Below are positions 544-44,480 of a DNA stretch of 45,782 bases, in pieces. Numbering within the stretch: position 1 is the stretch's first letter; each line of letters starts with the position of its first letter. The translations under genes and the position numbers were made by a program. Location: assembly GCA_038093975.1 (NCBI GenBank), contig JBBPTG010000196.1, positions 1 to 45,782 of the forward strand, in the 5' to 3' direction. This DNA is from Chalciporus piperatus. Taxonomy: Eukaryota; Basidiomycota; Agaricomycetes; Boletales; Boletaceae. The notes under the pieces were generated by a model. The model was not told the origin of the DNA. It searched no databases and was given only the letters and a program-made list of their open reading frames with translations.

Positions 544-547
544 AACT

Positions 548-4041: not shown

Positions 4042-4122
4042 ACAAAAGCAAACAGAGGAACGACATATATAAAAGCCTGGATGCCCACCCACCATCCCTC
4101 ATCTTCTCTACTCTAAATCATA

Positions 4123-4593: not shown

Positions 4594-4614
4594 TCACCTG
4601 GAAGTTGATCCATA

Positions 4615-4626
4615 GGAAGGGGGTAG
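4615..4626 (+). promoter_or_regulatory. Polypurine tract of element B
   Basis: The sequence gaagggggtag abuts the LTR start at 4627 and matches the equivalent tract in element C apart from small changes. It is the expected plus-strand primer. Confidence 0.65.
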
Positions 4627-5143
4627 TGTTACGGTTCATTACGGTTCTCTCACCTTCACAGACACTTTTCGGACTTCAACGTTTCGTTCCATTCGATCCT
4701 ATCTAATCTCTCTCATCTTATCTTTCAGACACGTGCTCATTCACTTTCACTATTCGCACGGTCGCCCCTTATGGTTATATTCATTCTCACGCACTGCCTT
4801 ACCTTGACAGTTAATCTCCGTGCTGCGCATGGCTATGCCACAGCCTTTCACCTCATGTACTTAATCTCGGCTATCTCGGCTATGCCTCACAGCCTCCTTA
4901 TCTCGCTTCTATTCTCATGGGTTCAGGGTAACTCCTTATTTAGTTATAGTTAGTACAAACATGTACAAACACTTAGGATAGTATATAAACCCCAAGGAAC
5001 TGCTGGTAACCCCAGCTTAGTTCACTTGGTCTTTCCCCAAGACTCAACCGTCCTATCTCAGTTGTTCTCCATTCTCTTCCTCTAAACCGCTTCACTTGGC
5101 GATAGTGTAGACCTGATCTCAATACAAGTTTTGGGTCGTTTCA
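4627..5143 (+). repeat. 3' LTR of element B (TGTTACGG...GTCGTTTCA)
   Basis: This 517-bp LTR has TG...CA ends. Its ends match those of element C (TGTTACGA...GAGTCGTTTCA read on the minus strand), so B and C are related. A TATA box (tatataaa) lies near 4981. The matching 5' LTR should lie left of the window, beyond the inserted element A. The 5-bp target duplication would be gaaca. Confidence 0.8.
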
Positions 5144-6981: not shown

Positions 6982-7517
6982 TGTCAAAATATAGTCCAAT
7001 CCGTGCCTATCCGCTCCTTTCCGCTTCCGGATAGGGGCTATCCGGAACCGGATACTTCTGGATGCATTCCATGTTTAATCCGACGTTTCCGATGTCCGGA
7101 ACGCACGGAAACATCTCCGGATTCGTTGGAACGGATCCCTTTTACATTCGTATGTTCTCCTATATGTCATTCACTTGTCTATTCCCTTTCGTGACATCTC
7201 TGTTCACCATTCACCCTTTCTATTCTTATCCATGTCAAGTCCTTGACATGGCTTGATCCTTTTGCACCCGGAATCGGTCATTCCGGACCGGAATCACGTC
7301 GGATCGTTCCGAGCACATCTCCACCCATTTACTTAAATTCCTCGTCTCACTTCCAGAGCACCTCAGTCGTTTCCGCCTCTCTTAGGCATCGGCTGAGGTG
7401 AGTATTTACTCTCTTTACTTAGTTCCTTTACTTATTTGAGTTGTACCTAGTTCGTTTAGGTGAATATAGTCGTTTCCGCCTCTCTTAGGCATCGGCTGAG
7501 TTCGTTTAGTTTTCACA
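6982..7517 (+). repeat. 5' LTR of copia element F
   Basis: The LTR runs from TGTCAAAATATAG to TTTTCACA. It contains a 33-bp segment repeated directly at 7365-7397 and 7468-7500; the first copy is followed by a good splice donor (gtgagt). It lacks a sharp canonical TATA box. The boundary is set where similarity to the right LTR stops. Confidence 0.88.
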
Positions 7518-7677
7518 TCAGGAACTCTGGGATAAACTCCTGGAGCTCTATGCAACTCCTAGCGTTTCCGACGCTTTCCATTCATTCCGCAGTCTCTTCT
7601 CCACTGCCTGGAACGGCACCTCTGCCATCTCTGAGCACGTCGCTTCCATCCGGACCATCCAACGCCAACTCCTCGGG

Positions 7678-10600
7678 ATGCAATACACCATCGATCCACA
7701 ACTCCTTGCCTTCACACTCCTCAACTTCCTTCCCAAAACTCCGGATTGGACCATGTTCACATCCTCCATCATCAACACCGTTGAGAAAGACAAACTCACG
7801 TTCGACACCATCGAACTTCGTGTTCTATCTGAGGAATCCCGTCTCAATCCGTCCGGAATTTCTGATTCCGCCCTCAAAGCGTCCGGAAGAGTTCCTGGAA
7901 ACTCCTCCGCCTGGTGTGAGCACCATCAGTCCAATGGACATGACTCGTCCAACTGCTTTGCTTACAAGAAGTGGGTCGAGAGGCTTTGCGAAGGCGGAGG
8001 ACCTGGACAGAAAGGAAAGGGAAAGGAAAAGGAAAGGGAAAAGGCTAATGCGACGGAAGAGCGTCCAGACCAAAGTTCCAGACCTCCGGAAAGTGCAAAC
8101 GTAGCTAAGGAGAGTGTATCTGAGTCTCTAATCCAACGTGTTCACGCCTATCTGTCGTCTGAACCCAAGCTGGCTGACTTCTCACTCCTCATCGACTCCG
8201 GAGCAACATCCCACATGGTTCCGCACCGTTCCTGGTTCCGCACGTACCATCCACTCTATCCACCACGTCCCGTGTCATTCGGAGACAACTCCACCGTTTC
8301 CGCGATCGGAATTGGATCCGTTCCACTTCGCTCCACTGTCAAAGGGAAGACGTTTGAGGTCATCCTAAGCAATGTCCTTCTCATTCCAGACTTCCGGATT
8401 TCTCTCATCTCCGTCCATCGCCTGTCCAATGCTGGACTATCCACCCTCTTTCCTGCGAACTCCTCCATCTGCCACATCCGGAAGGGGCCTGTTCCCATCA
8501 TCGTTGGAACACACAAGGAGGGTTTGTACCACGCGGAAGCCACTCCGATGCTCACTCCGGAGGCTGCGCATGCCACTGTGGATATCAACCTCCTCCATCG
8601 ACGCATGGGACACATCTCCATCCCACGGATTCAGCATATGATCAGGCATGGTCAACTCCAAGGGATTGACACGCTTTCTGGAACTCCGGAATTCTGTGAG
8701 TCCTGCATCCTTGGAAAGATGAAGAAGCTTCCGTTCGAGCTACTGGAAAGACCCCGAGCTACGCATGCACTCCAAGTGGTCCACACGGATGTCGGAGGTC
8801 CTATAACTCCACAGTCCAGGGAAGGATTCCGGTTCTGGCTCCTAATCGTCGACGACTTCTCCCGTTTCCCTTGGATCTACTTCCTGAAGAAGAAGAGCGA
8901 TGTCCTAGCCACATACAACCAGTGGAAGGTAGACGTCAAGGCCTTCTTCAAGGCTGAGGTCGAACAGGAGGAGTTGTCTGAGGCGCATGTCCAGTTCCTT
9001 AGGAGCGATGGGGGTGGCGAGTACACCGGACAGGACTTCCGGAACCAACTCCGGAAAGATGGAACCCTTCAGGAGATGTCTGCTCCTTATACTCCAGAGC
9101 AAAACGGACTCGCGGAACGGATGAACCAAACTCTATCCTCGCTCGCCAATACCATGCTCGAGGAGTCCAAACTTCCTAAATCCTTCTGGGCTGACGCTAT
9201 GGCCACTGCAGCCTATGTTACATCCAGGAGTCCAACGTCCGCGCTCCAAGGAGCGAATCCCTACCAGACCCTTTTCAAACGGAAAGTCGATCCGACCCTC
9301 TTCCGTCCTTTTGGATGTTCTGCCTATGCTCACATTCCGAAGGATTTGCGTGGAGGAAAGTTCCGGAGCCATGGACGGAAATGTATCATGCTTGGATATA
9401 CCTATGGGCAACAGGCATACAAGCTCCTCGATATCGAACGCCGTACCATCATCTCCAGTCGACATGTCACCTTCAATGAGTCCGGAACCATCTCTGAAGC
9501 GGACTCCGCACCTTGGAGAAATCTCCCTGCTGAGGGTCAGTGGGAGGGACTTGTTCCTCAGCGTCTCCATCAGCCGGAACCTGAGGAATCTGAGGAGGAC
9601 AACATTCCTGTACCTCCAGCCCTTCCAGGACCAGTGGGAGACGATCTCATACCTCCAGATCATTCCGTCGAGGATCTCGTCGACCGCTTGGGTCAACTCC
9701 ACATAGGTCCGGAACCTCCTGCTCCTGCTCCTGCCCCTCGTCCTGCTCCCATTCCCGTTCCTATTCCTGTTCCTGCCCCTGCTGCTCCAGTTCGAAGTCC
9801 ATCTCCGGAACGACCTCCTGCACAAGTCGTAGCAGGAGTTCGACGGAGCAATCGGAACCGTCAAACAGCAAACCGGAATCGAGACTACCAGCGCACCCTT
9901 GATGAGGAAGCTGCACGTCGAGCTGAACGCCAGGATGTCCAACAGGAACAACTGGAACCCCCTGCGGAAGTACTTTCCGAAAACGCGGAAGCTCCGGATC
10001 CAGATTTGGACATTCCAGGAGCATTCTACGCCTCTCAGGAAAGGCTCCAGGAGCATATCTTTGCAGGAGCCGCTGACGCAACCCAGGGAGAACACCTTCC
10101 TAACACTATCAAGGAAGCGTATGCAGGTCCTAACGCAGACCAGTGGAGATCCGCTGTCGAGGAGGAACTCCTCAGCTTAAACACCAACCATGTCTACGAA
10201 ACTGTCCCCATTCCATCCGGAGTCAATCCGATCACTTCCAAGCCCGTGTTCCGCATCAAACGCGATCAGAACGGCAAGATCGAACGATACAAGGTCCGGA
10301 TTGTTGCTCGAGGGTTTACCCAGCGCGAAGGAGTTGACTATCAGGAAGTATTCGCTCCCGTAGCAAACCTCGATTCCGTCCGGACCATCATTGCTCTTGC
10401 CGCGAAGCATAACTTGGAACTGGATCAAATGGACGTTTCCACCGCATATCTCAACGGAGAGCTCGAGGAGGAATTGTACCTCCTACCTCCGGACGGTGTT
10501 CCCATTCCTTCCGGATGCTGTTGGAGACTCAGACGCTCCCTATATGGCCTTAAACAAGCCGGACGTACTTGGAACAAAACCCTGGACAAAAAGCTTGGAG

Positions 10601-11694
10601 AACTCAGATTCACCAGACTCGACGCAGAGACCTGCCTTTACGTCCTTCGGAAAGACGGACAGGTCTGTTTCCTTGTTGTGTATGTCGACGACCTTCTCCT
10701 TGCAGCCACCTCCAGGGGTTTCATCAACTCCTGTAAGGAGGCCCTTTCCGCTGCATTCAAAATGCACGACCTTGGAGAAGCCAAGTACATCCTGGGAATC
10801 GAAATCCGTCGCGACCGGAAACTCCGTACCATCTCCTTGAGTCAATCCCAGTATGCTTGCACCGTTCTAGAGCGAACTGGAATGACCAACTCTGCTCCCG
10901 TCTGGACTCCTATGGTCCATGGCATACATCTCTCTGCGACGGATCCTGAGGACGACACCATGATTCCAGAACTCCGGATTGAAGGGAAGCTTGTTTCTTA
11001 CCTTACCGTCATCGGGTCCCTCATGTATCTCATGCTTGGAACACGTCCGGATATTGCATACACTGTTGGACACCTCGCCCGTTACAGTTCCGCACCCAAG
11101 ATGTGCCATTGGGAAGCCGCAAAGCGTGTCCTCCGTTACATTCGAGCAACTTCAGACATGGAACTTCGGTACGACGGAACTGATGTGTCCTTGGATCAGG
11201 ACTTCCATGGATACTCTGACGCTGGATGGTCGCAGGACCCAGACAACTCCCGTTCCACTTCCGGATTCCTGTTTCTCAGCAATCGCGGTGCCATTTCCTG
11301 GTCCAGCAAACAGCAGAGCATGGTTGCACTGTCTACCACGGAATCAGAGTACATCGGACTCAGTCTCGCTGGACAGCATCTCGCTTGGCTCCGGACCTTC
11401 TTTGCAGAGATTGGACATCCTCAGAAGGGCCCAACAACGCTCAACTGCGATAATCAGGCCGCCATCATCCTTTCCCGTGATCCTCAGTTCCGAGCTCGAA
11501 CCAAGCATATCAAACGGAAGTACCACTTCGTCCGGGACGACTTGGTTGCGACCGGAGAAGCCGTTATCCAATATGTTCCTACTGGGGACATGGTCGCCGA
11601 CATCCTTACCAAGCCTCTCGTCAGGGAGCAACACTGGAAGTTCGTTCGTGGGATGGGATTACGATTGCGCTCGAGTGGGAGTGTCAAAATATAG
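7678..11694 (+). CDS. Copia gag-pol polyprotein (N-terminus of gag missing)
   Basis: The first ATG of the frame is 7678, but the frame is open from 7510. Residues before the ATG are clear gag (ELWDKLLELYATPSVSDAFH), so the true N-terminus is lost or spliced in. Order: gag remnant with a CX2H-type cluster (CEHHQSNGHDSSNC); protease DSGATSHM; integrase zinc region (HRRMGH, then CESCILGK) and catalytic D in HTDVGGP, D in RSDGGGEY, E in QNGLAERMNQ; a Pro-rich spacer; reverse transcriptase with TRP-type blocks and YVDDLLLAA; RNase H with SDAGWS and STTESEY. No internal stop occurs in over 1300 codons. The stop lies inside the 3' LTR (TAG 11692-11694). The enzymes look intact, but gag does not. Confidence 0.92.
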   Translation: MQYTIDPQLLAFTLLNFLPKTPDWTMFTSSIINTVEKDKLTFDTIELRVLSEESRLNPSGISDSALKASGRVPGNSSAWCEHHQSNGHDSSNCFAYKKWVERLCEGGGPGQKGKGKEKEREKANATEERPDQSSRPPESANVAKESVSESLIQRVHAYLSSEPKLADFSLLIDSGATSHMVPHRSWFRTYHPLYPPRPVSFGDNSTVSAIGIGSVPLRSTVKGKTFEVILSNVLLIPDFRISLISVHRLSNAGLSTLFPANSSICHIRKGPVPIIVGTHKEGLYHAEATPMLTPEAAHATVDINLLHRRMGHISIPRIQHMIRHGQLQGIDTLSGTPEFCESCILGKMKKLPFELLERPRATHALQVVHTDVGGPITPQSREGFRFWLLIVDDFSRFPWIYFLKKKSDVLATYNQWKVDVKAFFKAEVEQEELSEAHVQFLRSDGGGEYTGQDFRNQLRKDGTLQEMSAPYTPEQNGLAERMNQTLSSLANTMLEESKLPKSFWADAMATAAYVTSRSPTSALQGANPYQTLFKRKVDPTLFRPFGCSAYAHIPKDLRGGKFRSHGRKCIMLGYTYGQQAYKLLDIERRTIISSRHVTFNESGTISEADSAPWRNLPAEGQWEGLVPQRLHQPEPEESEEDNIPVPPALPGPVGDDLIPPDHSVEDLVDRLGQLHIGPEPPAPAPAPRPAPIPVPIPVPAPAAPVRSPSPERPPAQVVAGVRRSNRNRQTANRNRDYQRTLDEEAARRAERQDVQQEQLEPPAEVLSENAEAPDPDLDIPGAFYASQERLQEHIFAGAADATQGEHLPNTIKEAYAGPNADQWRSAVEEELLSLNTNHVYETVPIPSGVNPITSKPVFRIKRDQNGKIERYKVRIVARGFTQREGVDYQEVFAPVANLDSVRTIIALAAKHNLELDQMDVSTAYLNGELEEELYLLPPDGVPIPSGCCWRLRRSLYGLKQAGRTWNKTLDKKLGELRFTRLDAETCLYVLRKDGQVCFLVVYVDDLLLAATSRGFINSCKEALSAAFKMHDLGEAKYILGIEIRRDRKLRTISLSQSQYACTVLERTGMTNSAPVWTPMVHGIHLSATDPEDDTMIPELRIEGKLVSYLTVIGSLMYLMLGTRPDIAYTVGHLARYSSAPKMCHWEAAKRVLRYIRATSDMELRYDGTDVSLDQDFHGYSDAGWSQDPDNSRSTSGFLFLSNRGAISWSSKQQSMVALSTTESEYIGLSLAGQHLAWLRTFFAEIGHPQKGPTTLNCDNQAAIILSRDPQFRARTKHIKRKYHFVRDDLVATGEAVIQYVPTGDMVADILTKPLVREQHWKFVRGMGLRLRSSGSVKI

Positions 11695-16032: not shown

Positions 16033-17861
16033 TCAGGGAGTGTCGGATGATTGTACAACGGCGGAGAGCTGTAGGATATCCTGAGCTGCAGGGCGCGAGG
16101 GTGGGTGGTTGGAAATGCCAGCATTGCTGGACTCGGGTGGACTATTTCGAGGTAAAGACTGCGCCATGGGAATGGTCTCTCGGTCTCGTTCTCGTGCCGG
16201 GGACGCTCGAGGCCGCCGACGGGACAAGAACCCACAACATCCGATGTCGTTGACTTCTGGTTCCGCGATCGAGTCGTTGTCGCTCTCTTCGCTGCTCTCT
16301 CCGGAAGCGGACTCCTCGACGACCATGAGAGGAGGGGTGGGTGCTGAGTCAGAAGGGGTGGAAGGGTCGTTGCTGATGGTGGACCTTGAAGCAACCTGTG
16401 TACCCTATCCGAAACAGACTTATTCAGTACGTGTGATGAAAACGGGGGTGATTGGCTTACTGGTTCCGCCCATCCCATGTATATTGGGTGCGAGCGATCA
16501 AGTACAAATCGGGGCAACATGTTCCACAACCTCCAGGAGAGCATTCGGCGCTGTACCCGGGGCGGGGGATCGGATGAATTCATTCTTGAATGGTCTTGAA
16601 GGGGATGGGGGCGACGTGATGCAGGCGCCTACAAAATGCCAGAATTAGGCATCAATTTCTGGCAATAGAGTAATGAAACTGACATTGAGGAAACCAAAGT
16701 CAGATTCACGAGGGATATTTGAGGGAACGTCGGGTGAAACCACTGCTGATTGCTACGCATATGGTGTGTCAGAAATGCAGGAACAGTAGACACTGAGAGC
16801 TAGCACGCACGTCAAGGAGGGGATCAGGGGTCTGCAACATCAATGTCAGTTTATGAAAATAACCATTGAATGAACAGTGGAACCTTTCGATTGTTATTGT
16901 CCCACCACGGGACACGCCAAGCTGAGATGTTCCCCCCTTTCCCACTGCATGCAACAAATTCCCCAGACCGAGAAAACGCAACTGCCATCACGAGTGAACC
17001 GTGGTCGAGTGGCTCTCCGATAGGCAAGCGCGATCCCACGTTCCAAAGAATGACCATTTTATCTGTGGATCCACCGGCAAGCCATTTGCCATCGGGAGAG
17101 AGGGACAGATGTGTCACTATTTTCTGATGGGATTGTTTTAGTTCATCGATGACCTTGCCCGTGCTCGAATCCAATGAACGGATCCGACCGTCCTCACAGG
17201 CAACGAAAAGTCGGTCAGATTGCTCAGATGACCAAACAACAGCAAATAACCCGTGAGAATCAGCGACATCGAGTGGTCCAAAGATTATTTCGCCACTTGC
17301 CGCATCAAGAACGAGGATCCAGGAGTTGTATGCTATTGCGAGTTTATCGCCGTCGGGAGAGAAACAAGCTGACTTGGGATTCTGGAACCCTCCGATGGAG
17401 TCGTGGCTGATGAAATTTCTGATTCGCATAGTCCCCGCCATCTCCCATATGACGCTCCCATTGGAGTGACAACTCGCGAGGAGCTCTTCATTTTGAGACA
17501 AAGCCATGCACCGAGCACCACCATAATCCTCGGTCGACCATGGGCCGTTAGTGAGTTCGTCCGTGTCCGTGTTCCATACCCTCAGACGTTTATCCAGCTG
17601 TGAGCATGAAATAATCCGCCCGTCTTCTGTGGTGATGACCCCAGTCACCCAATCCTGGTGCACCATCGAGCTACCCTCTTGCGTGCCGGTCGTCAAATTC
17701 CATATCCGCAAGGTCCTATCGGTTGAGCCAGTCACGACCCGGCCATCGGAAAGCCATGCTATACGCGTTGTCCACCATTTTTCAAGTTCTTTAGGAGCTT
17801 GTATGGTAAACGTTGGGCTTGGACTTTTCTCTGCAGGTTCAAGTGCGTCCGAGTCTGTCAT
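16033..17861 (-). CDS. WD40 beta-propeller protein, copy I (multi-exon)
   Basis: The start is ATG 17859-17861 (MTDSDALEPAEKS). The main exon (17861-16851) holds about seven WD-type repeats, e.g. GRVVTGSTDRTLRIWNL, DKRLRVWNTD, KWLAGGSTDKMVILWNV and a last blade ending SAWRVPWWD. Such propellers are protein-interaction scaffolds. The main frame stops at 16851. Downstream exon-like segments follow: PDPLLD; QSAVVSPDVPSNIPRESDF; MNSSDPPPRVQRRMLSWRLW; and a tail of VVEESASGESSEESDNDS with a cysteine pair (DIGCCGFLSRRR), ending at 16033. These are flanked by plausible GT-AG sites, but the exact splice chain was not resolved, so activity is uncertain. Copies II-IV are clearly duplicates. Confidence 0.7.
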
Positions 17862-18284
17862 AGTCGTAGGTCTGAGGAGGGGTGACAATGAGTAGAAGGA
17901 GAGGAGATGAAGACACAGGACGAACCTTCAACCTGCACGACTGAGCGATGATCGATTGGTCGATGAGCGTGGCAGACGAAAATTGCATTGTGTACATGTT
18001 GTGGACATCAGTGGGTCCATCCCGCGTAGATATTTCAAACCCAATTGATCGTGCTTAGCGCCGCGTGCTAAGTAAACGCAGCTCGATCATTTCACCTGCA
18101 CGATGCTCGAAGCATGAATCCAAAGTATAACGGATTGGTTACCAGTCTACCAGTAGTCTACCTCAGTAACATCCGAGTTTTCAAGGAAATGGAAATTTTC
18201 CATTGCATTCCATGTCCAGTCGAATGCTGTGGTAAATCTTTCCGCGTTACCACCGCCGGGCCGTTGGATACTCCAGATGGCAAT

Positions 18285-22488: not shown

Positions 22489-24312
22489 TCAGGGAGAGTC
22501 GGACGATTGTACAACGGCGGAGAGCTCTAGGATATCCAGAGCTGCAGGGCGTGAGGGTGGGTGGTTGGGAATGCCAGCATTGCTGGAGGAGGGTGGATTG
22601 TTTCGAGGTAGAGACTGACCAACAGGGATGTTGTCTCGTTCTCGTGCCGGGGTCGCTCTAGACCGCCGACGGGACAAGAACCCACAACATCCGATGTCGT
22701 TGACTTCTGGTTCAACGATCGAGTCGATCCCGCTCTCTTCGCTGCTCTCTCCGGAAACGGACTCCTCGGCGACCACGAGAGGAGGGGTGGGTGCTGAGTC
22801 AGAAGGGGTGGAAGGGTCGTTGCTGATGGTGGACCTTGAAGCAACCTGTGTACCCTATCCGAAACAGACTTATTCAGTATGTGTGATGAAAACGGGGGTG
22901 ATTGGCTTACTGGTTCCGCTCGTCCCATGTATATTGGGTGCGAGCGAATGAGTACAAATCGGGGCAACATGTGCCACAACCTCCAGGAGAGCATTCGGCG
23001 CTGTACCCAGGGCGGGGGATCGGAAGAATTCATTCTTGAATGGTCTTGAAGGGGACGGGGGCGACGTGATCCAGGCGCCTACAAATTGCCGGAATTAGGC
23101 GTCAATGTCTGGCAATAGAGCAATGAAACTGACATCGAGGAAACCAAAGTCAGATTCACGAGGGATATTTGAGGGAATGTCGGGTGAAACCACTGCTGAT
23201 TGCTACTAACGCATACGGTGTGTCAGAAATGCAGAAACAGACACAGAGAGCTGGCACACACGTCAAGGAGGGGATCGGGGGTCTGCAGCATCAATGTCAG
23301 TTTATGAAAATAACCATTGAATGAACAGTGGAACCTTTCGATTGTTATTGTCCCACCACGGGACGCGCCAAGCTGAGATGTTCCCCCCTACCCCGGTGCA
23401 TGCAACAAATTCCCCAGAACGAGAAAACGCAACTGCCCTCACGTCTGAACCATGGTTGAGTGGCTCTCCGACAGGTAAGCGCGAGTCCACGTTCCAAAAA
23501 ATGACTGTGTGGTCATACGATCCGCTGGCAAGCCATTTGCCATCGGGAGAGAGGGACAGACACACTATCGTGTCGCGATGGGATCGTTTTAGTTCATCGA
23601 TGATCTTGCCCGTGCTCGAATCCAATGAACGGATCCGATAGTCCCCACAGGCAACGAAAAGTCGGTCAGATTGCTCAGATGACCAAACAACAGCATATAA
23701 CGAGCCAGTGACATCGAGTGGTCCAAAGATTTTTTCGCCATTTGCAGCATCAAGAACGAGGATCGTCCATGAGTCGTGTGCCATTGCGAGTTTATCGCCT
23801 TCGGGAGAGAAACAAGCTGACTTGGCGGCATACCGAAACCCTCCAATGGAGTCCTGGCTGATGAAATTTCTGATTCGCATAGTCCCCGCCATCTCCCATA
23901 TGACGATCCCTTTGTAGTGATAGCTCGCGAGGAGCTCTTCATTTTGAGACAAAGCCATCCACCAAGCAGGACCATAATCTTCGGTCGACCACGGGCCGTT
24001 AGTGAGTTCGTCCGTGTCCGTGTTCCATACCCTCAGACGTTTATCCCCCCTTCCAAATGAAATAATCCGCCCGTCTTCTGTGGTGATGACCCCAAACACT
24101 GGACCCTGGTGCACCATCGAGCTACCCTCTTGCGTGCCGGTGATCAAATTCCATATCCGCAAGGTGCCATCGCTTGAGCCAGCCACGACCCGGCCATCGG
24201 AAAGCCATGTCATACAAGTTGTCGAAGCATTTTCAAGTTCTTCAGGACCTTGTATGGTGAACGTTGGGCTTAGGCTTTTCTCTGCAGGTTCAAGTGCGTC
24301 CGAGTCTGTCAT
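22489..24312 (-). CDS. WD40 beta-propeller protein, copy II (multi-exon)
   Basis: The start is ATG 24310-24312; the main exon runs to the stop at 23302 (336 residues). It has seven WD-like repeats as in copy I, including RVVAGSSDGTLRIWNL, KWLASGSYDHTVIFWNV and NISAWRVPWWD. Downstream exon-like segments run to 22489: MNSSDPPPWVQRRMLSWRLW and VAEESVSGESSEESG, then DIGCCGFLSRRR. Differences from copy I are mostly substitutions that keep the frame. Order with neighbours (nucleotidase +, WD40 -, P450 -, Nug1 -) is the fullest example of the duplicated module. The splice chain past 23302 is not resolved. Confidence 0.7.
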
Positions 24313-24624
24313 AGTCGTAGGTCTGAGGAGAAATGAGTAAAAGCGGAGGAGATGAAGACACAGGACGAACCTTCAACCTGCAGGACTGAGCGATGATCGA
24401 TGAGCGTGACAGACGAAAATTGCATTGTGTACTTGTTGTGGACATCAGTGGGTCCATCCCGCGTAGATATTTCAAACCCAATTGATTCAATGATTACTTT
24501 CTACCTTGAGTCTACCTTGTCCAGCTCATGCATGTTCCCACACAAAATGCTGTCGTACATCTTTCCCCCTTACCACCCCCGGACCCTTGGAGACTCGAGT
24601 TCAACGTTCAACTTCTGATCGCAA

Positions 24625-30580: not shown

Positions 30581-31017
30581 TTTGCTTGAAAACTTGAATG
30601 TCGCTGATGCTTGTTCCACCCCTTGACATGCATCCGAAATTCCCTGCACGTTGTAATATGGAAGACTATGTAAGAGTGCGTTTTCGAGAGCAGTGTCTAT
30701 CGGACAAGCTCGGTCACAGCCTTGCTCGCCTAGATGCTCGTTCATTTGTTCTTTACTGGACAACACAATCGAACAACTACGTTAAATGTTGCATCATGCA
30801 GATGAAATGATTGAGCTCCATTTGGCGGTAAGTGCAATCAATTGAGTTTGGAATATCTACGCGAATGGACCCACTGATGTCCACAACAAGTACACAATGC
30901 AATTTTCGTCTGCCACGCTCATCGATCAATCGATCATCGCTCGGTCCTGCAGGTTGAAGGTTCGTCCTGTGTCTTCATCTCCTCCGCTTTTACTCATTGC
31001 TCCTCAGACCTACGACT

Positions 31018-32845
31018 ATGACAGACTCGGACGCACTTGAACCTGCAGAGAAAAGCCTAAGCCCAACGTTCACCATACAAGGTCCTAAAGAACCCAACAA
31101 TCTGCGGACAAATTGCATAGCATGGCTTGCCGATGGCCGGGTCGTGACCGGCCCAACCGATGGCACCTTGCGGATATGGAATTTGACGACCGGCACGCAA
31201 GAGGGTAGCTCGATGGTGCACCAGGGTCTGGTGGATGGGGTCATCACCACAGAAGACGGACGGATTATTTCATGTGCAATCGGGGATAAACGTCTGAGGG
31301 TATGGAACACGGACGCGGACGAACTCACTGATGGCCCGTGGTCGACCGAGGAATATGGTTTTGCTTGGTGCATGGCTTTGTCTCAAAATGAAGAGCTCCT
31401 CGCGAGTTGTCACAAAAAAGGGATCGTCATATGGGAGATGGCGGCCCGGACCATGCGAATCAGAAATTTCATCAGCTACGACCCCATCGGAATCAGTGGG
31501 TGGCTGTCTGCCAACTCAACTTGTTTCTCTCCCGACGGCGATAAACTCGCACTAGCAGACAACTCCTGGATCCTCGTTCTTGATGCTGCAAGTGGCGAAA
31601 AAATCTTTGGACTCGATGTCGCTGATTCTCGCGAGCCATATAGTGTTGTTTGGTCATCTGAGCAATCTGACCGACTTTTCGTTTCCTGTTGGGACCGTCG
31701 GATCCGTTTATTGGATTCGAGCACGGGCAAGGTCATCGATGAACTAAAACAATCCCATCGCGGCGCAGTGGAGTGCCTGTCCCTCTCTCCCGATGGAAAA
31801 TGGCTTGCCAGCGGATCGAATGACAACACAGTCATTCTTTGGAACGTGGGATCGCGCTTGCCTGTCGGAGAGCCACTCAACCATGGTTCAAACGTGAGGG
31901 CAGTTGCGTTTTCTCGTTCTGGGGAATTTGTTGCATGCACCGGGGTAGGGGGGAACATCTCAGCTTGGCGCGTCCCGTGGTGGGACAATAACAATCGAAA
32001 GGTTCCACTGTTCATTCAATGCTTAATTCATAAACTGACATTGATGCTGCAGACCCCCGATCCCCTCCTTGACGTGCGTGCTAGCTCTCTATGTCTACTG
32101 TTCCTGCATTTCTGACACACCGTATATGTAGCAATCGGCAGTTGTTTCGCCCGACATTCCATCAAATATCTTTCGTGAATCTGACTTCAATTTCCACGAT
32201 GTAAGTTTCATTACTCTATTGCCAGAAATTGACGCCGAATTCCGGAAATTTGTAGGTGCCTGCATCACGTCGCCCCCGTCCCCTTCAAGACCATTCAAGA
32301 ATGAATCCATCCTATCCCCCTCCCCGGGTACAGCGCCGAATGTTCTCCTGGAGATTGTGGAACATGTTGCCCCAATTTGTACTCGATCGCTCGCACCCAA
32401 TATACATGGGACGAGCGGAACCAGTAAGCCAATCACCCCCATTTTCATCACACATACTGAATAAGTCTGTTTCGGATAGGGTACACAGGTTGCTTCAAGG
32501 TCCACCATCAGCAACGACCCTTCCACCCCTTCTGACTCAGCACCCACCCCTCCTCTCATGACCATCGAGGAGTCCGTTTCCGGAGAGAGCAGCGAAGAGA
32601 GCGGGAATGACTCGATAGCGGAACCAGAAGTCAACGACATCGGATGTTGTGGGCTCTTGTCCCGTCGGCGGCCTAGAGCGACCCCGGCACGAGAGCGAGA
32701 CAACACTCCCGTTGATCAGTCTTCACTTCGAAATAATCCACCCTCGTCCACCAATGCTGGCATTCCCAACCACCCACCCTCACGCCCTGCAGCTCAGGAT
32801 ATCCTAGAGCTCTCTGCCGTTGTACATTCATCCGACAATCCCTGA
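31018..32845 (+). CDS. WD40 beta-propeller protein, copy III (inverted)
   Basis: The start is ATG 31018 (MTDSDALEPAEKS). This copy is inverted relative to copies I and II. The main frame runs to 32115, longer than the others because the splice donor after VPLFIQ is changed (gtta to ctta) and translation reads through the intron region. Seven WD-like repeats are seen, e.g. GRVVTGPTDGTLRIWNL, KWLASGSNDNTVILWNV and NISAWRVPWWD. Downstream exon-like segments (NESILSPSPGTAPN or the alternative frame PPPRVQRRMFSWRLWN, then TIEESVSGESSEESGNDS and DIGCCGLLSRRR) end at 32845. Another exon-like piece, MDYVLNYYHIPVATDRVVV, lies at 32887-32973. Loss of the donor may alter or kill the C-terminus. Confidence 0.68.
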
Positions 32846-36547: not shown

Positions 36548-37019
36548 TGAAACGACTCAACTCAACTAAGAGCTAAGACTCACACTAGACAATAGCGAGC
36601 CGATGTACTTGGCTGAGGTTCGATGAGGAAACTCCAGGAGAACAAGACTGGAGAGTCCAGTGCTTGTCGACCCGGGTTTATATACTATTGTCAATGTTTG
36701 TACATGTTGTGGCTAAACCTTATCGTAGGTGACTGGGTATGACTCATACTAACTACTAGCCAATGGCGTAACTAGCTCTACTGCGGAATGAGTAAGCGTG
36801 AGTCATATGATGAGTAATGCTGACTGATGCTGACGAGTGAGCTGTGAGTCATCAGTTAGTAAACGAAGGTCTAGGCCTAGCTTATGTAAGTAAGTCACGT
36901 GATGCGATAAGATAAGATAACAAAAGAGAAAGTGAAACGACTAAGTCCATCGAAGAGAAACCTAGTAAGCGTAATGGAATGTAGGCATGATTAGGATAAG
37001 AAATGGAGCGTTCGTAACA
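36548..37019 (-). repeat. 3' LTR of element C
   Basis: The LTR is 472 bp. On the minus strand it runs TGTTACGAACG to GAGTCGTTTCA. The left edge cuts a minisatellite unit. It contains the same TATA box and downstream agtcttgttct as the 5' LTR. Confidence 0.9.
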
Positions 37020-37053: not shown

Positions 37054-37617
37054 TCAGATTTCGATGAGTGGAGCTTGGTTCATCCACGGTACCCCTTCTG
37101 CTGGTGGAGCAGCAGCGACCTGAAGGTTATTGTTCACCCAGGTAGCTGGTGGTTCAAATGGGTTACCATCGTTTTCGTCGACAGGAATAGGGTGGGTAGC
37201 ACCTACGAGTGCTGGGTCGGGGATAGGAGGATTAGCGAGATCAGGCCAATTGGTAGGCCATTCTTGCTGATCAGGATTCTGCTGTTCCTCTATCACGTTG
37301 TCCCACTTGCTCAAATCCGGGTGCCATACAACGAGCTTCATCCACTTTGTCGACCAATCCCAGTTAACCTCAATAGACGTAGACCGCCTGGTAACGATCA
37401 TTTGAGCGAACATGAGGTACTGAATAGCGATGGTGATGACGACAATGGCGATGAAGGTGAGGAGGGAGGGGATGAGTATGCGGAGGATCCAACCGTTGCA
37501 GATGACGAAGAGTACCAAGAGGAGGGAGAGGACAAAGTTGCCTCGATCCCTAGTGAAGTTTCGAACGAAGATGTCGCGGAGGACATTCTCCCAAGCGTAG
37601 ACGTCGTTGAGATCCAT
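37054..37617 (-). CDS. Element C: post-pol membrane-protein ORF
   Basis: This 187-residue ORF runs from ATG 37615-37617 and lies 63 bp downstream of pol. Two strong hydrophobic segments (FVLSLLLVLFVICNGWIL and LIPSLLTFIAIVVITIAIQY) occupy about residues 28-68. Then comes IVTRRSTSIEVNWDWSTKWM with LVVWHPD, similar to VTDRTTIVEYQISWTEMWM and LKVMHPN in element B. The rest is Pro/Asn-rich. Position, topology and this motif are shared with B, so it is a conserved extra gene of this chromovirus group. An envelope-like or membrane-targeting role is an inference from place and topology; no known fusion domain was recognised. Confidence 0.68.
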   Translation of the reverse strand: MDLNDVYAWENVLRDIFVRNFTRDRGNFVLSLLLVLFVICNGWILRILIPSLLTFIAIVVITIAIQYLMFAQMIVTRRSTSIEVNWDWSTKWMKLVVWHPDLSKWDNVIEEQQNPDQQEWPTNWPDLANPPIPDPALVGATHPIPVDENDGNPFEPPATWVNNNLQVAAAPPAEGVPWMNQAPLIEI

Positions 37618-37680
37618 TGGTGATGATGGTGGTTCGCGGAAGAGAAACCGTGAAAGTGGAGACTGTCAAACATCAGTCTT

Positions 37681-40600
37681 TTATACCTCTTCGGTATTCG
37701 GCACGGTATTCAACCAATTGATTTGTCCATTATCCACCTGACTCGTCAGGTTGTCATACGGCTGGAATAGTGACTCAAATAGACTCCGTGACATGCGAAG
37801 GAATCGCGGAGCGGACGGGTGTATCTTGTTGAATTCCCTTATTGCATCCTGTGCATTCTTGAGATTAGATCTCGGTTCCCATGTCCGATCAGATTCAGCA
37901 TAGCCTTTCCAATGCACGAGGTATTTCAGGGTTTTTCCCTGTAAACGAGAATCAACGATGTAGTCCACCTCGTATTCATCATCTCTGTCTTCTGTCACAA
38001 TCACAGGCCCAGGCTTGTCAACGGTTTGCTTCCGTAACCTGTCCTTATATGGTTTGACACGTGAAATATTAACGACGGGGTGAATTTTCATGGTACACGG
38101 AAGCTTCAAACGTAGTGCGTTCCGTCCAATCAGGGTTGTGATTTCGTAAGGGCCCAACCATCGCGGTGAAAGTTTCTTAGATCTCTGCGCCAGGCGGAGA
38201 TTAGCTGTAGACAACCAGACCTTCTGACCAATCTCATAAGATGGGGAGTCAGAACGGTGTTTGTCAGCTTGTGCTTTCATACGCTTCTGAGCTTCTATTA
38301 TGTTATCCTTGGTTTCTTTCAACGTGTTGGCAAGAGTGTCAACAAAGTCCGCAGCAGCGGGTGCTTTAGACGTGTAATTTTCTATTCCCATTCTTGGAGA
38401 ATATGTGTGCGTAACGTTGAAGGGAGCTTTGGACGTAGAGGCTTGCTTCTTCGAGTTGTATGAGAATTGAGCGATTGGTAACCAATCAGTCCATTCTTCT
38501 TGCTTTTCTGACGTGAACAAACGAAGATACTGTTGTAGATCTCGATTCATACGCTCAGTTTGTCCGTCGGTTTGAGGATGAAAGGCGGTAGAGAGTTTGG
38601 GCGTAATGCCAAGACGTTTGCATATGTCTTTCATCACTTGAGATGCGAATTGTGGACCTCGGTCCGATATGATGGTCTTAGGAAGTCCATGATGTTTCCA
38701 TACATGGGTCAGGTAAAGACGGGCAGTGTCGAGAGCGGTGACTGTCTTGTTGCAGGGGATGAATTCGACTTCTTTGGAGAACCTGTCAACGACGACAAGA
38801 ATAGAATCGAATCCATTTGAGAGTGGCAGATCAGTAGTGAAATCTGCGGAGATGTGTTCCCAGGGAAGATCCGGAACTTCAAGAGGGTGTAGTTTTCCGG
38901 AAGGGGCGTAGTTTATCCCTTTGAAACGTGCACATCTATCACAGCGTGAGACATAGTCTTTCACGAGCGTAGCCATTCCTGGCCAGGCGTAACTGCGCTG
39001 TAGCAGTTCAATTGTCTTTTCATATCCGGGATGTCCTGCGACAGGCGTGTCGTGATGAAGTCGTATAATCTCCATACGGAGATTTTCTTCTTCAGGCACA
39101 TACAATCTTCCTTTCCTGTCAATCAGAATCCCATCAGACTCTTCACAAATGCCATGTTCTTTACAGAGTTTCATGACTTCTGTCTCGTGTATTTTGAAGG
39201 TTGCTTTTCTGATTTTGTCCTTGATCAGATCGGAATCGGTTGAGAGTTGAACAGTTGACGTAGCAGCTATTCTGTCCGGAGGTATTACAAGGACAGCCTT
39301 GTTATCTGCTTCGATACCGATTGCATGATCTTCTCTTCTTGATAAGGCATCGGCTTTTCCCATTTGGGAACCTGCTTTGTGTAGCCATTTGAAATTGAAT
39401 CGACTAAGATATTGAGACCAACGTGCTTGGCGTCGATTTAGATCTTGCCGAGTCATGAAGAACTGAAGATTTGCATGGTCGTTCCAGATTTCAAACTCGT
39501 GCTTGGAACCTTCCAGATAATGTCTCCACTGTTCTAGACTTCTGATAATGCTTAGCATCTCTTTATCCGCGATGGGATAGTTGCGTTCTTCCGGTGACAT
39601 GGAGTGGGAAGAGAACGCGACGGGATGCCATTTGTTTCCTTGTTCTATAGATAGAACAGCACCCGTGGCGTAATTAGATGCATCCGATTCTAGTCGGAAG
39701 CGTTTGTCATTGTCTGGAAAAGCGAGTATGGGGGCGGTGATGAACTTCTGTTTCAACGTGTTGAAGGCGTTCCGCTGTGCATCTTCCCATGCGAATTTCA
39801 CATCCTTCTTGGTAAGATCATTCAAGGGTCTAGCCACTTGCGCATAGTCCTGAATGAAGCGACGATAGAAATTTGCTAATCCGAGAAAGCTTCTGACACC
39901 TCTGACATTTGTCGGAGTTGGCCATTCGGTGATTGCCTTGACCTTATCGTCGTCCATCCTGATTCCTTCGGGAGTAATTGTCATTCCCAAGAATTCTACT
40001 TCTTTGGTATGGAAGACACATTTCTCTGGTTTGACGAAAAGGTCATTCTCCTCTAGGCGACGAAGAACTTCTTTGACTATTTTGGTATGGACAGCAGGGT
40101 CATCGGATTTGGTAAAGATCATGATGTCATCAATGTAGACTACAACGGCGTCTTCCATGTCTGAGAAGATGTCGTTCATCATGGTCTGAAATGTTGCAGG
40201 AGAATTGCATAATCCGAAGTACATGACCAAGGGTTCGAAGGCGCCACGGAAGCATACGAATGCGGCTTTAGATTCATCGCCTTCTTTGATGCGGATATTG
40301 TTGTATCCCCAACGCAAGTCCATTTTGGTAAACAGTTTTGCGCCTTTCAGTTTGTCAACTAATTGGGAAATGAGGGGCAGCAGATAATTGTTCTTCACCG
40401 TGTGTTCGTTTAGGTATCAGTAATCTTGAACCATACGCTTCTTGCCATCCTTCTTAGGAACGAAGAACACGGGAGAAGTCTGCTCTGATTTGGAAGGATG
40501 AATGTATCCTTTCTTGAGTTGATCATCAATGAATGCACTGACTTCTTGTTGTTCCGTGACAGAGAGTGGGATAAGACGACCTTTTTTTGGCTTGTAGGTG

Positions 40601-41397
40601 TCTTTTAGGTCAATTGCGTGATCCCACGGCTTACGGGTTGGCATGCGTTCAGATTCCTTTTTCTTGAACAGGTGAATATACTTGTGATACTCTTTCGGAA
40701 CAAGCTCTTCCGGAGTCTTTTCCGTTTTCGGTTCAGGTGCATCCTTCTTTGCGGCGTTAATGTGACGAAGAGAGTTTCGTTCTTCATCATCAAGCTGACG
40801 CGCGAACGGTGGTTTATCTCGTAAAACGGAACAAGACCAGGGACAACGAGTCATGTGGACCGTTCCTTTGTTCCAATCTATTTCCGGATTGTGTTGCTTC
40901 AACCATGCATATCCTAGTATCATCTGATTCTTTCCAAGATCAGTGACTTCTGCAATGGCTTTCTCACAATGTCCGTTGAAATGAATAATGATTTCCGCAC
41001 AGTGTGTTATCTGTCCAGCGGAGTTATGCGTTCCGTCCACGTTGTATACCGTAAGTGGATGTCTAAGTTGCACGAGGGGTAATTTGATTTTATCAGCCCA
41101 TCTCCGATCAACGAAGATAGCATTGGCTCCTGAATCAAGAAGTGCTTCTGCTCGTGTGAAAGCAGACGGAAGTCGTTGTGAAGCGATGGAACTGGATAAC
41201 TTCAGTTCTCGATCCATCGTGCGAATGAAACGTGGTCCTGGGTTTTCGGAAAGATATCGGATTATAGAAACAGAATTAAGCACCTGACTAGAGTCCAGGC
41301 CAAGCTCATGGTCAACATGAGACCCCGTTTGACTGTGTGAATAGTTTACAGATTTTCCTAATGAGTTAGTTGCGGTCCGTTTGCCCAGATCATTCAG
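37681..41397 (-). pseudogene. Element C: pol polyprotein with one nonsense codon
   Basis: The frame is open from upstream of the gag stop, in the -1 register, down to 37681 except for TGA at 40417-40419. There VQDY is followed by a stop and then YLNEHTVKNNY; the family has VQDYR, so CGA to TGA is likely. Order: protease LLDSGANAIFV; reverse transcriptase (VFFVPKKDGKKRMVQDY, KMDLRWGYNNIRI, VVYIDDIMIFT); RNase H (ESDASNYATGAVLS, NDHANLQFF); integrase zinc region (LHHDTPVAGHPGYEK, CDRCARFKG); core D in SADFTTD, D in ISDRGPQF, E in TDGQTERMNR; GPY motif RWLGPYEI; chromodomain (EYEVDYIVD, LVHWKGYAESDRTWEP). It is full-length for a chromovirus. The single nonsense codon separates protease/early RT from the rest. 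Confidence 0.92.
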
Positions 41398-42593
41398 GCC
41401 GCTTTGCCTTTTCCCTTCATCTCGATATCTTTCATATCATAGAAGTAAGCCTTCATTTCTTCGAATGAACGGCCTTCAAGAGCGCTAGATTCGGTAGATA
41501 GTTCTCTTACTTGCCTTTTCTGAAGTTTGCAGGCACGTTTGTGTTCGCCTCGTGACCAACCACAGCCCTTGCATTTGGTACTAGGTACCGGACATTGCTG
41601 TTTCGGATGTCCCGGTTTCCCACAGTTCCAACAATTTCCTTGTTTCTTTTCTTTGAAATTGCTTGTGGCCGCTTTTACGACAGATGGTGCTTCTTCTTCT
41701 TCCACAATCTCTCCTTCTTCGATTTCGGCAGAACCTATATCCATTGGGGCACCACGACCCGGCTGTGTGCCCGTGTTGGTATATTTGTATCGCGGGGTAT
41801 CACCTGCGGTTCCTGTCTTGATCATGGAGATAAGCTGTTTTCTTCCTGCAAGGAGGCGTAATTCTTCGACGTATGTATCATATTTGTCGAGCCGTCCTTT
41901 TTCCATTAAGATCCGGTGTGTGATCTCTGGATCTGCGTTTAGTTCCAGAAGTTTGATGTGTCTCGCGTCATCCCAGTCGTCCATGAGACGATGCGTCTGG
42001 AACGTGGTAAGGAATTTCTCCATAGACATCTTGCCTTGTTTCAAATTCTTGATCTGATTGCGGTGATATTCCACTTCATTACCCGAGCGGAATTGATCAG
42101 TGATTCGTTTATGGAACTCGGCGGAAGTATAGGTAGTTCCATTCTCTAAGATGTCATGTGTCATGGCTGGTGAGAAAGTAGCGGCGTCTCCTCCTGTCAT
42201 GCGACTAAGGATAGCTCTGATCGCCGTCATTCCGGTTAACACAGTATTGTTTTCATCTAGCCATGCGCGGACTCTTGTCCACCATTCTTCGAACTTCTTT
42301 CCTCTAGATCCATCATAGTCTCCTGGATCTTTGACGATTTTGGATAACTTAGGTCCGCTAGGTCCGACCGTAGGAGCTGGAATTGCGCCAGGCACTTGGA
42401 TGGCTTGCACTTGCGCCTCAAGCTGCAAGACATTATTGTTTAGACTTTGATTTATTCTTTGAGCGTTGGTAAGCTGATCCGCCATTGTTTCCAACGTGAG
42501 TCTCAACTGCGTTCCAAGATTTCGTATGGACGCATCACGATGATTGAGAATGGCTGTTAAGGCAGCTGCTAAGTCTGGAGCGAGAACTGACAT
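41394..42593 (-). CDS. Element C: gag polyprotein
   Basis: This 399-residue ORF runs from ATG 42591-42593 to TGA 41394-41396. The N-terminal part has a coiled-coil-like stretch, then the retrotransposon gag core (IVKDPGDYDGSRGKKFEEWW ... QFRSGNEVEYHRNQIKNLKQ). TNTGTQPGRGAPMDIGSAE follows, with a CCHC knuckle CWNCGKPGHPKQQC and a second Cys-rich unit (CKGCGWSRGEHKRAC). It forms the virus-like particle. The last codons contain GGGAAAA in the correct register for -1 slippage into the pol frame. Confidence 0.9.
   Translation of the reverse strand: MSVLAPDLAAALTAILNHRDASIRNLGTQLRLTLETMADQLTNAQRINQSLNNNVLQLEAQVQAIQVPGAIPAPTVGPSGPKLSKIVKDPGDYDGSRGKKFEEWWTRVRAWLDENNTVLTGMTAIRAILSRMTGGDAATFSPAMTHDILENGTTYTSAEFHKRITDQFRSGNEVEYHRNQIKNLKQGKMSMEKFLTTFQTHRLMDDWDDARHIKLLELNADPEITHRILMEKGRLDKYDTYVEELRLLAGRKQLISMIKTGTAGDTPRYKYTNTGTQPGRGAPMDIGSAEIEEGEIVEEEEAPSVVKAATSNFKEKKQGNCWNCGKPGHPKQQCPVPSTKCKGCGWSRGEHKRACKLQKRQVRELSTESSALEGRSFEEMKAYFYDMKDIEMKGKGKAA
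41409..41415 (-). promoter_or_regulatory. Candidate -1 frameshift heptamer (GGGAAAA)
   Basis: On the minus strand, gag frame AAG GGA AAA contains G GGA AAA, a heptamer of the X XXY YYZ form, 12 nt before the gag stop. The pol frame lies at -1 and is open across the overlap. No clear downstream pseudoknot was worked out. Confidence 0.4.
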
Positions 42594-42637: not shown

Positions 42638-43859
42638 TCAGATCTCCTGAGATCCTTCAAGGGTTTCTCCTGATAACGAAGCAGGGGCGTCTCTCTGATA
42701 AGGTGGCGGTGGAATGCTTCTTCTGATGGAATGAGGCGCGGGATAGTACAGTTGCACTCCTGGCGCGTTTGTTTCTCTTAGTCCTCCTTCTTCTTCGCTA
42801 TCTGAGTCTACTAATCCTGGCACTGATTCCCTATCCTCTTCTTCAAGTTCCGCTTGTGATATAACAGGGGAAAGGGGAGGAGTAGGTGGTGCTACTGGAC
42901 GGTTCCTGTGAGATACTAGTATGTAGGCGAAGTCAAAGGTAACGCGACGGTCGTCTGAGAGAATTTCGTGGCCGAAGATGAGGTATGAAAGTAGCAGGAA
43001 GGCCTGTAAGCTGTACTGGACGAATCTTCCTAAGGGGTACAAGAGGCTTATGGCAGCGAGTGCGGCGAGTAGGACGCGGGGTTGGTACTCTCTCCTTAAT
43101 ACGAATATCGGCGTCCTCTGGGATACCTCTAAGTAGCCTGTCGCTTCGTCGGCGTTGACGTACCCGATCGTCAATGTTCTCTCGAATCGCCTTCTCTCCT
43201 GCCGGTGATATAAGCGTGTGATAGATAGCGCTACGGAAACTTTGCGTACGACCAGAGACTCCAAGGGGGAATCTGTGTTGAAGAGCAAGAATATCCTCGT
43301 CGACGGTGGTCCAATCAACGGGCTCCGCGAGCGGGGTTGGGGCTCTGGGAATGGAGGAGGCACGGTAGAATAACTCTTCAACGCCGAAGGCGTCGGCTAG
43401 TATCTGCTGGGGGTTGGGCGGCGGCGATGCCCGAATAGCCTCGATAGGCGGGAGTGATGGATATCGACGACGGTCGATCTGGAGATCGACGGGGTTAACA
43501 GTCGATACGTGACGTGGGTAAGGGGGAATTACCGGTTCTTCCAACCAATCAACGTAGAGGTCGGAGTAATCAGGCCTTGGCGCGATTGGCACTGAGTACT
43601 GTTCGATGAATCTCCTCTCTTCTTCTTCGAATCGCGCCCGAGTACGAGCGACTTCTTCCTGAACACGAGCGTTCTCTCGCTCGAGATCCGCGATGATGTT
43701 GGTAAAGGCTGGATATGCCTCTACAGCGTTTCCGAGCTTCGCGATGACGTTGAGGAAGTCGGGGTTGTTCTCGACGGCGGGGAGATCAAGTATACCGTTC
43801 CACTGGATGGAAGGTACAGGGGACGCGGCGCGCTGAGATGCGGCGGGGTTGCTCGACAC
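42638..43859 (-). CDS. Element C: pre-gag membrane protein, two frames joined by a 46-nt intron
   Basis: Two overlapping minus-strand frames lie between the primer site and gag. The first starts at ATG 43857-43859 and has a charged coiled-coil region (REVNARVQEEVARTRARFEE-like, about residues 60-90) and a Pro-rich middle. The second has no useful ATG. Removing GT-AG segment 43118-43163 (gtacgt...cccag, 46 nt) joins ENIDDR to RTPIFVLRREYQP in phase. It yields about 391 residues with two hydrophobic stretches (VLLAALAAISLLYPLGRFV and YSLQAFLLLSYLIFG) and an acidic, Pro-rich C-terminus. The join is inferred from splice consensus and frame agreement. Alternatively the second frame is reached by +1 frameshifting. 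No homologous family is recognised. Confidence 0.55.
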
Positions 43860-44003: not shown

Positions 44004-44480
44004 TGAAACGACTCAACTCAACTAAGAGCTAAGACTCACACTAGACAATAGCGAGCCGATGAACTTGGCTGAGGTTCGATGAGGAAACTCCAGGAGAACA
44101 AGACTGGGGAGTCCAGTGCTTGTCGACCCGGGTTTATATACTATTGTCAATGTTTGTACATGTTGTGGCTAAACCTTATTGTAGGTGACTGGGTATGACT
44201 CATACTGACTACTAGCCAATGGCGTAACTAGCTCTACTGCGGAATGAGTAAGCGTGAGTCATATGATGAGTAATGCTGACTGATGCTGACGAGTGAGCAG
44301 TGAGTCATCAGTTAGCAAGCGAAGGTCTAGACCTAGCTTATGTAAGTAAGTCACGTGATGCGATAAGATAAGATAACAAACGAGAAAGTGAAACGACTAA
44401 GTCCAAGAAACGAAGAGAAACCTAGTAAGCGTAATGGAGTGTAGGCATGATTAGGATAAGGAAATGGAGCGTTCGTAACA
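44004..44480 (-). repeat. 5' LTR of element C
   Basis: This LTR is 477 bp. On the minus strand it carries TATATAAA (44133-44140), then the segment AGTCTTGTTCT (44095-44105) near the expected RNA start, and ends GAGTCGTTTCA. Confidence 0.9.
44133..44140 (-). promoter_or_regulatory. TATA box of element C 5' LTR
   Basis: TATATAAA on the minus strand, inside the LTR and upstream of the putative transcript start. Equivalent boxes occur in the LTRs of elements A, B and D. Confidence 0.65.

Follow-up and report, generated by a model that had tools for sequence, protein, structure and literature searches.

The window analyzed here, a stretch of 45,782 nucleotides (nt) from the fungus Chalciporus piperatus (contig JBBPTG010000196.1), contains two Ty3/gypsy retrotransposons, element B and element C, in each of which an open reading frame (ORF), termed ORF3, lies between pol and the polypurine tract. 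Descriptions of fungal Ty3/gypsy elements generally list gag and pol. Judged from sequence, one lineage of the chromodomain elements in fungi has ORF3 as a genuine third gene, which encodes a predicted small membrane protein. The initial annotation of the window had noticed the frame in both elements, and both are indeed present, each followed by a purine-rich tract that adjoins the start of the long terminal repeat (LTR), TGTTACG... As in the definition of the plant genes called aORF-3S, ORF3 is a conserved sense ORF between pol and the 3′ LTR.

Copies of ORF3 were sought in the source genome (35.5 Mb, 484 contigs). A chitin synthase domain has five matches in this genome and hydrophobin 37, which marks it as fungal. 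The C protein yields 93 genome rows, 52 of which are stop-free over at least 174 of the 187 residues (one of these without an ATG), and the B protein yields 55 rows, 30 of them stop-free over residues 1–153 or more (one with an internal deletion); these numbers of open copies are far above the chance expectation. DNA was compared at 49 C loci, comprising 48 of the 53 near-full-length rows (the single stop-bearing one included) and a fragment in L016, at 22 B loci, with nine of the 31 longer B rows left out, and at the one locus of a third family, D. Pol lies directly 5′ of ORF3 at 47/49 C, 22/22 B, and 1/1 D loci, the exceptions being L060, with about 2 kb of extra sequence between pol and ORF3, and L040, where the stretch begins at ORF3. 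In the opposite direction, comparisons by eye place an ORF3 match, sometimes damaged, downstream of all 40 scored C chromodomain places (of 133 candidates) and downstream of 31 of 32 B pol tails; the remaining tail, at C15, diverges from B just before the TATA motif. Three further C-like places found with the SH3 family search (C199, C239, and C422; L074–L076) have no ORF3 within about 1.5 kb, and C199 and C239 have a truncated chromodomain in common.

The C and B proteins are 43% identical over 35 amino acids (aa) (BLASTP, E = 1e-7). Family D is a single copy (L069, G000:C19) with integrase, SH3, and chromodomain sequences upstream and a stop in pol, and its 186-aa ORF3 product matches the window copy of C at 33% identity (E 1e-16, residues 19–127) and that of B at 27% identity (E about 1e-9, residues 15–104). 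By these matches D bridges families B and C, and the homologues in other elements for which the initial annotation had asked are thus found.

The ratio of nonsynonymous to synonymous substitution rates (dN/dS, NG86) is 0.147 for C ORF3 across 46 of the 49 loci (L016, truncated, L044, without an ATG, and L057, with a stop, were omitted) and 0.155 for B ORF3 across 21 of the 22 (L071, with a deletion, was omitted). Maximum-likelihood estimates of omega are 0.19 (GY) or 0.15 (MG) for C and 0.10 for B, and fixing omega at 1 with kappa at 2 is more than 250 log-likelihood units worse than the free GY+F3X4 model in each family. Codon bootstraps of the pooled ratio of nonsynonymous to synonymous differences per site (pN/pS) span 0.12–0.23 for C and 0.13–0.25 for B. 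When the same alignments are read in other frames, the ratios are 1.16 (+1), 1.97 (+2), and 0.82 (antisense) for C and 1.89, 3.13, and 1.37, respectively, for B; values of 0.82–3.13 against about 0.15 in the sense frame indicate that the sense frame is coding and that the open antisense frame is not. Purifying selection on ORF3 is therefore strongly supported in B and C, the two multi-copy families. Neither ratio is near 1, the selected function that the initial annotation had proposed is borne out, and ORF3 is almost certainly a selected gene.

Selection is distributed unevenly along the frame. In C, codons 1–25 and 76–125 have the lowest pN/pS (0.07–0.10), and the hydrophobic stretch has 0.24–0.28; the contrast in B is weak, with 0.12–0.19 for codons 26–75 versus 0.09–0.11 for codons 1–25 and 76–100. 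The three closest C pairs show raised ratios, as would follow from the decay of copies once inserted, and no such trend is seen in B. Among copies with an intact pol tail, dN/dS is 0.144 in ORF3 versus 0.061 in pol for C (37 copies) and 0.131 versus 0.076 for B (17 copies). The ratio of ORF3 dN to pol dN reaches 4.4 for one C pair (0.062/0.014) and averages 3.7 in C and 2.6 in B, and between D and C the ORF3 dN of 0.70 is 4.7 times that of the chromodomain (0.15) and 3.5 times that of SH3 (0.20). Evolution of the ORF3 protein thus outpaces that of the pol tail about two- to fivefold, a rate compatible with vertical inheritance. The integrase part of D is far less diverged (dN 0.016 over 113 codons).

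In 100-nt windows, D and C are 61–91% identical across pol and the stretch before ORF3, 44–54% across ORF3, and 60–73% in the LTR region (76–83% in BLASTN pieces). This drop in identity first suggested a cassette exchange of ORF3 in D. Since the ORF3/pol dN ratio is similar within families and between D and C, a swapped module is unnecessary, and faster evolution in place suffices; the D–C comparison is rough, given the much lower divergence of the integrase part, synonymous sites near saturation, and a single D copy, and a swap may yet have occurred.

Element C, on the minus strand of the window, is organized as follows.

44480–36548, minus strand: element C (whole)
44004–44480, minus strand: 5′ LTR, 477 nt
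41394–42593, minus strand: gag-like ORF, with Retrotrans_gag and CCHC matches, both sub-threshold in Pfam
40420–41436, minus strand: protease region, cut off from the remaining pol by an in-frame stop in the window copy
37681–40416, minus strand: pol, with reverse transcriptase (RT), RNase H, integrase, SH3_Tf2-1, and chromodomain (Pfam, above cut-offs)
37666–37690, minus strand: TATA block before ORF3, a putative promoter, with TATAA at 37681–37685 overlapping the pol stop codon at 37681–37683
37618–37665, minus strand: AG-poor leader from the TATA block to the ORF3 ATG
37054–37617, minus strand: ORF3, encoding a predicted membrane protein of 187 aa
37020–37032, minus strand: polypurine tract, assigned from the sequence
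36548–37019, minus strand: 3′ LTR, 472 nt

The LTR pair, which differs by 11 substitutions over 472 aligned positions, and the RVT_1, RT_RNaseH, rve, SH3_Tf2-1, and Chromo matches above Pfam cut-offs identify element C as a chromovirus. In the window copy the stop separates protease from RT, and the element ends lack a matching target-site repeat. An extra frame of 308 residues lies between the 5′ LTR and gag of element C (42933–43859, minus strand). It is open at exactly 308 or 321 residues in 46 of 86 genome rows, with a TGA inside three, has no Pfam match, and contains no methionine in the window copy; it may be a spliced exon or have a non-AUG start.

Element B, on the plus strand, is a damaged copy.

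About 2138–5143, plus strand: element B (whole, damaged copy)
2138–4018, plus strand: pol remnant with RNase H, integrase, and 3′ tail, the frame broken in the window copy
4063–4087, plus strand: TATA block before ORF3, with TATAA at 4068–4072
4123–4593, plus strand: ORF3, 156 aa, open despite the broken pol
4614–4626, plus strand: polypurine tract, assigned from the sequence
4627–5143, plus strand: 3′ LTR, its end inferred visually from that of the C LTR

Pfam does not call a chromodomain in the broken frame of this copy (2138–3637).

The ORF3 proteins share a common layout: an N-terminal MD, about 25 residues, a hydrophobic stretch of about 45–50 residues, and the motif M[LI][VI]T.[RH].[ST]...E....W[ST]..WM...[VI].HP, which is near-universal in the alignment rows, with single-copy exceptions. 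Then come a linker whose length differs greatly and a C-terminal stretch with weak similarity. Net charges of −4 to −14 in five representatives make the tail acidic, and a PPxY motif is present in B and absent from the C and D representatives. Directly after the hydrophobic stretch, C and D have TRR or TRK and B has TDR. The hydrophobic stretch is too long for a single transmembrane segment, and the ORF3 product is very probably a membrane protein. AlphaFold2 models C with helices at residues 3–40 and 42–76 and strands at 82–87 and 92–97, and models B with a single long helix at 15–78 and strands at 83–89 and 94–100; the resulting β-hairpin, which corresponds to the shared motif, lies at the same place after the helices or helix in both models. 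The description of ORF3 in the initial annotation, two hydrophobic helices followed by a shared motif containing IE, is confirmed with a small correction: the hydrophobic residues and the motif are found in both elements, and IE in C is ME in D and VE in B. Two helices are modeled for C and one for B.

The suggestion that the protein might be envelope-like is not supported. All five representatives have zero or one cysteine, zero or one NxS/T N-glycosylation site, no RxxR, and no ectodomain between the hydrophobic segments, and no significant similarity to viral glycoproteins was found in Pfam, PDB sequences, IMG/VR, or BFVD, the last searched with the low-confidence C model only. By no feature tested does ORF3 qualify as an envelope glycoprotein. 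The myristoylation motif MGxxxS/T is likewise absent, the MD start being invariant in alignments of 27 and 34 sequences.

Upstream of ORF3, and unremarked in the initial annotation, a TATAA lies 53–84 nt before the ATG in 22/22 B copies, 57–69 nt before it in all 48 C copies with upstream sequence, and 55 nt before it in D. It includes the pol stop codon in C (37/37 intact tails), falls within pol in D, and lies 16–30 nt past the pol stop in B (17/17 intact tails). The chance of a TATAAR in the interval, from dinucleotide shuffles of one copy per family, is 0.042 for B, 0.0075 for C, and 0.018 for D. Copies of B share 91% identity in the 25-nt TATA block, compared with 56% in the leader, which varies from 33 to 64 nt in length, and 82% in the 30 nt before the block. 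AG is absent from 20/22 B and 44/48 C leaders, where composition would predict about 0.95 and 1.6 per leader, respectively, and these AG-poor leaders disfavor a splice acceptor just before the ATG. An additional ATG occurs 12 or 13 nt after the TATAA in 21/22 B and 47/48 C copies and at 12 nt in D; a conserved upstream ORF beginning there was considered and rejected, as its frame lengths vary widely. Transcription start sites lie 25–35 nt downstream of a TATA box. This ATG thus precedes the expected start site and would disturb reinitiation or a transcript begun further upstream, which favors a separate mRNA without proving one. ORF3 probably has its own putative promoter.

As a whole, these features are best explained, though only tentatively, by a selected third gene with an internal promoter, whose product, a small protein integral to the membrane, anchors the particle. 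This TATA promoter, located where pol ends, would likely produce a short ORF3 mRNA ending in the 3′ LTR, apart from the genomic gag-pol RNA. The predicted fold, which is of low confidence, would place an N-terminal helix, a transmembrane hairpin with both ends cytosolic, a β-hairpin at the membrane face, and an acidic tail in an internal membrane (endoplasmic reticulum or nuclear envelope) or in the plasma membrane. There, ORF3 could hold Gag or virus-like particles at the membrane for assembly, trafficking, or nuclear entry. The most constrained regions of C flank the membrane stretch, which fits the docking of a partner, and Gag or the particle would be the natural one; anchoring itself, close to the particle-membrane contact raised by the initial annotation, is a possible function, somewhat less assured than the explanation as a whole. 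Several observations weigh against this explanation. The models have a mean pLDDT (predicted local distance difference test) of 55 and 57, with about 48–50 for the strands and about 80–95 for the hydrophobic helices; the turn between two helices is modeled in C alone, B having one long helix; and the weak charges that flank the hydrophobic stretch leave the topology ambiguous. The C TATA block is 90% identical between copies, the same as the leader and below the preceding pol stretch (95%), and its first bases double as pol codons. With no conservation contrast in C, conservation backs the promoter solely in B, and otherwise by the recurrence of the motif across the three families. In addition, the D leader contains one AG, and other chromodomain-type families of the same genome manage without ORF3.

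The proposal of a separate promoter competes with expression of a real ORF3 from a spliced full-length RNA or through reinitiation downstream of pol, which is the less probable route. Splicing is used by retroviral env and by some plant env-like additional ORFs, according to the part of PMC7264820 consulted, and the C pol stop is merely 62–67 nt before the ORF3 ATG. The nearly AG-free leaders of B and C (that of D has one AG) argue against splicing, and the ATG 12–13 nt after the TATAA, with its unconserved frame length, would intercept reinitiating ribosomes. The idea that ORF3 is a captured passenger or a functionless chance frame draws on the absence of a significant homologue beyond the elements and on the antisense frame that is also open in C. 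A dN/dS of about 0.15, against 0.8–3.1 in other frames, and the presence of ORF3 in families with 56% identity between their pol tails leave it hardly credible, and as far as sequence allows it is already refuted.

Two other functions for a membrane-bound ORF3 are both unlikely. One is cell-to-cell passage or membrane fusion, perhaps at hyphal contacts, in the manner of reoviral FAST proteins and of sORF2, which is reportedly a small transmembrane protein of Drosophila MDG1-group retrotransposons. ORF3 is likewise a small transmembrane protein in an env-less LTR retrotransposon, and sORF2-like genes lie 3′ of pol in some lepidopteran elements (PMC11952523, in the part consulted). However, ORF3 lacks the N-myristoylation motif, has about two hydrophobic segments rather than one, and has no clear polybasic patch in B, and the fungal cell wall makes fusion from outside improbable. 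The other, to be doubted to a similar degree, is a viroporin-like activity that permeabilizes or reshapes membranes. A small protein with a highly hydrophobic helical stretch preceded by a helix would be consistent with it, by analogy with class II viroporins, but constraint in C is strongest outside the hydrophobic stretch, a pattern more in line with a binding surface than with a pore; the B contrast is weak.

The distribution of ORF3 was further explored in 12 other 3′ ends: the three C-like places named above, six of the element A type, and three (L072, L073, and L078) of another type. The latter nine are absent from the ORF3 matches and have no comparable ORF, their hydrophobic frames being out-of-frame readings or low-complexity stretches. 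ORF3 therefore marks a single lineage (B, C, and D) rather than all chromodomain-type families of this genome. In the family of L072, L073, and L078, the pol frame continues far beyond the SH3 domain, by 383 to at least 517 residues in the sequences analyzed, and a frame of 2697 aa is open at the L072 place. A different chromodomain type, element A (window 1–1714, plus strand), contains a 462-aa ORF downstream of the chromodomain; this ORF includes two CCHC-like knuckles, overlaps the pol end in a different frame, and resembles a gag-like gene 3′ of pol. In several of six further copies, truncations or interruptions affect it.

Outside this genome, no significant homologue was found among about 5.8 billion proteins with the C protein, the B protein, or a 27-sequence alignment as queries, in IMG/VR with the same alignment, or among PLSDB plasmids with C ORF3. 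PDB sequences also gave no significant match (best E 6.9), and a fold search with the low-confidence C model only gave no match at E ≤ 0.001 in BFVD (best 0.57) or PDB (best 5.4). No Pfam family matches above its curated cut-off, the best sub-threshold hit being DUF1182 (E 0.023), so the capture of an unrelated host gene, which the initial annotation had raised, is not seen. The share of fungal nuclear sequence in the searched collections is not established, and the absence of matches is therefore no proof of rarity among fungi.

Elsewhere in the window, a Ty1/copia-type polyprotein is open over 1394 codons at 7510–11691 (plus strand; RVT_2, rve, Retrotran_gag_2, and others). Three open frames, at 16854–17927 (minus strand), 23305–24372 (minus strand), and 30958–32112 (plus strand), begin very similarly and suggest a local gene expansion; the frame at 30997–32112 matches WD40 families.

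A membrane protein conserved in three families, with an apparent promoter of its own, would, if real, point to a membrane step in the fungal Ty3/gypsy life cycle for which searches of the open-access literature gave no description, and through the ORF3 gene it can be asked directly if that step is membrane assembly, passage of the nuclear envelope, or movement between cells. No description of the ORF3 gene was found in these searches. In the available part of one survey (PMC3248453), gag and pol are named, and env, envelope, and transmembrane do not appear. The legend to Figure 3 of PMC2864245, the portion available, marks an "add. ORF" in fungal Gypsy elements, similarly an unassigned additional ORF, without position, sequence, or property. 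Among plant elements, as excerpted from PMC7264820, the "env-like" aORF-3S resemble ORF3 in their position between pol and the 3′ LTR, their sense orientation, the transmembrane segments of some, and an unproven function; by that description ORF3 is set apart by its fungal host, by an apparent promoter of its own rather than the 5′ LTR promoter or splicing, and by the lack of an envelope-like ectodomain. Grande gene23 of maize, described in the same excerpt, is an accessory gene 3′ of pol with its own reported promoter, but it is antisense and encodes a nuclear protein, whereas ORF3 is sense and encodes a predicted membrane protein. ORF3 of the bdelloid rotifer element Vesta4 (220–230 aa; PMC5408684, in part) also follows pol and has two hydrophobic segments; the fungal protein differs in having zero or one cysteine and no RxxR.

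The insect sORF2/FAST-like proteins share with ORF3 the character of a small transmembrane accessory protein in an env-less LTR retrotransposon (PMC11952523, a preprint, here and below in the sections available). They have one transmembrane segment, an N-myristoylation motif in four of six, and a polybasic region, and are encoded mostly upstream of gag on the genomic RNA; ORF3 has neither the myristoylation motif nor a single segment and lies downstream of pol. sORF2 has been proposed to move env-less insect retrotransposons between cells. It is a long shot that ORF3 represents an unrecognized family of element-encoded membrane proteins, expressed from an internal promoter, through which chromoviruses work at membranes and possibly move particles between cells at hyphal contacts. 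If true, it would be a fungal counterpart, of separate origin, to the envelope-independent transmission of insect retrotransposons.
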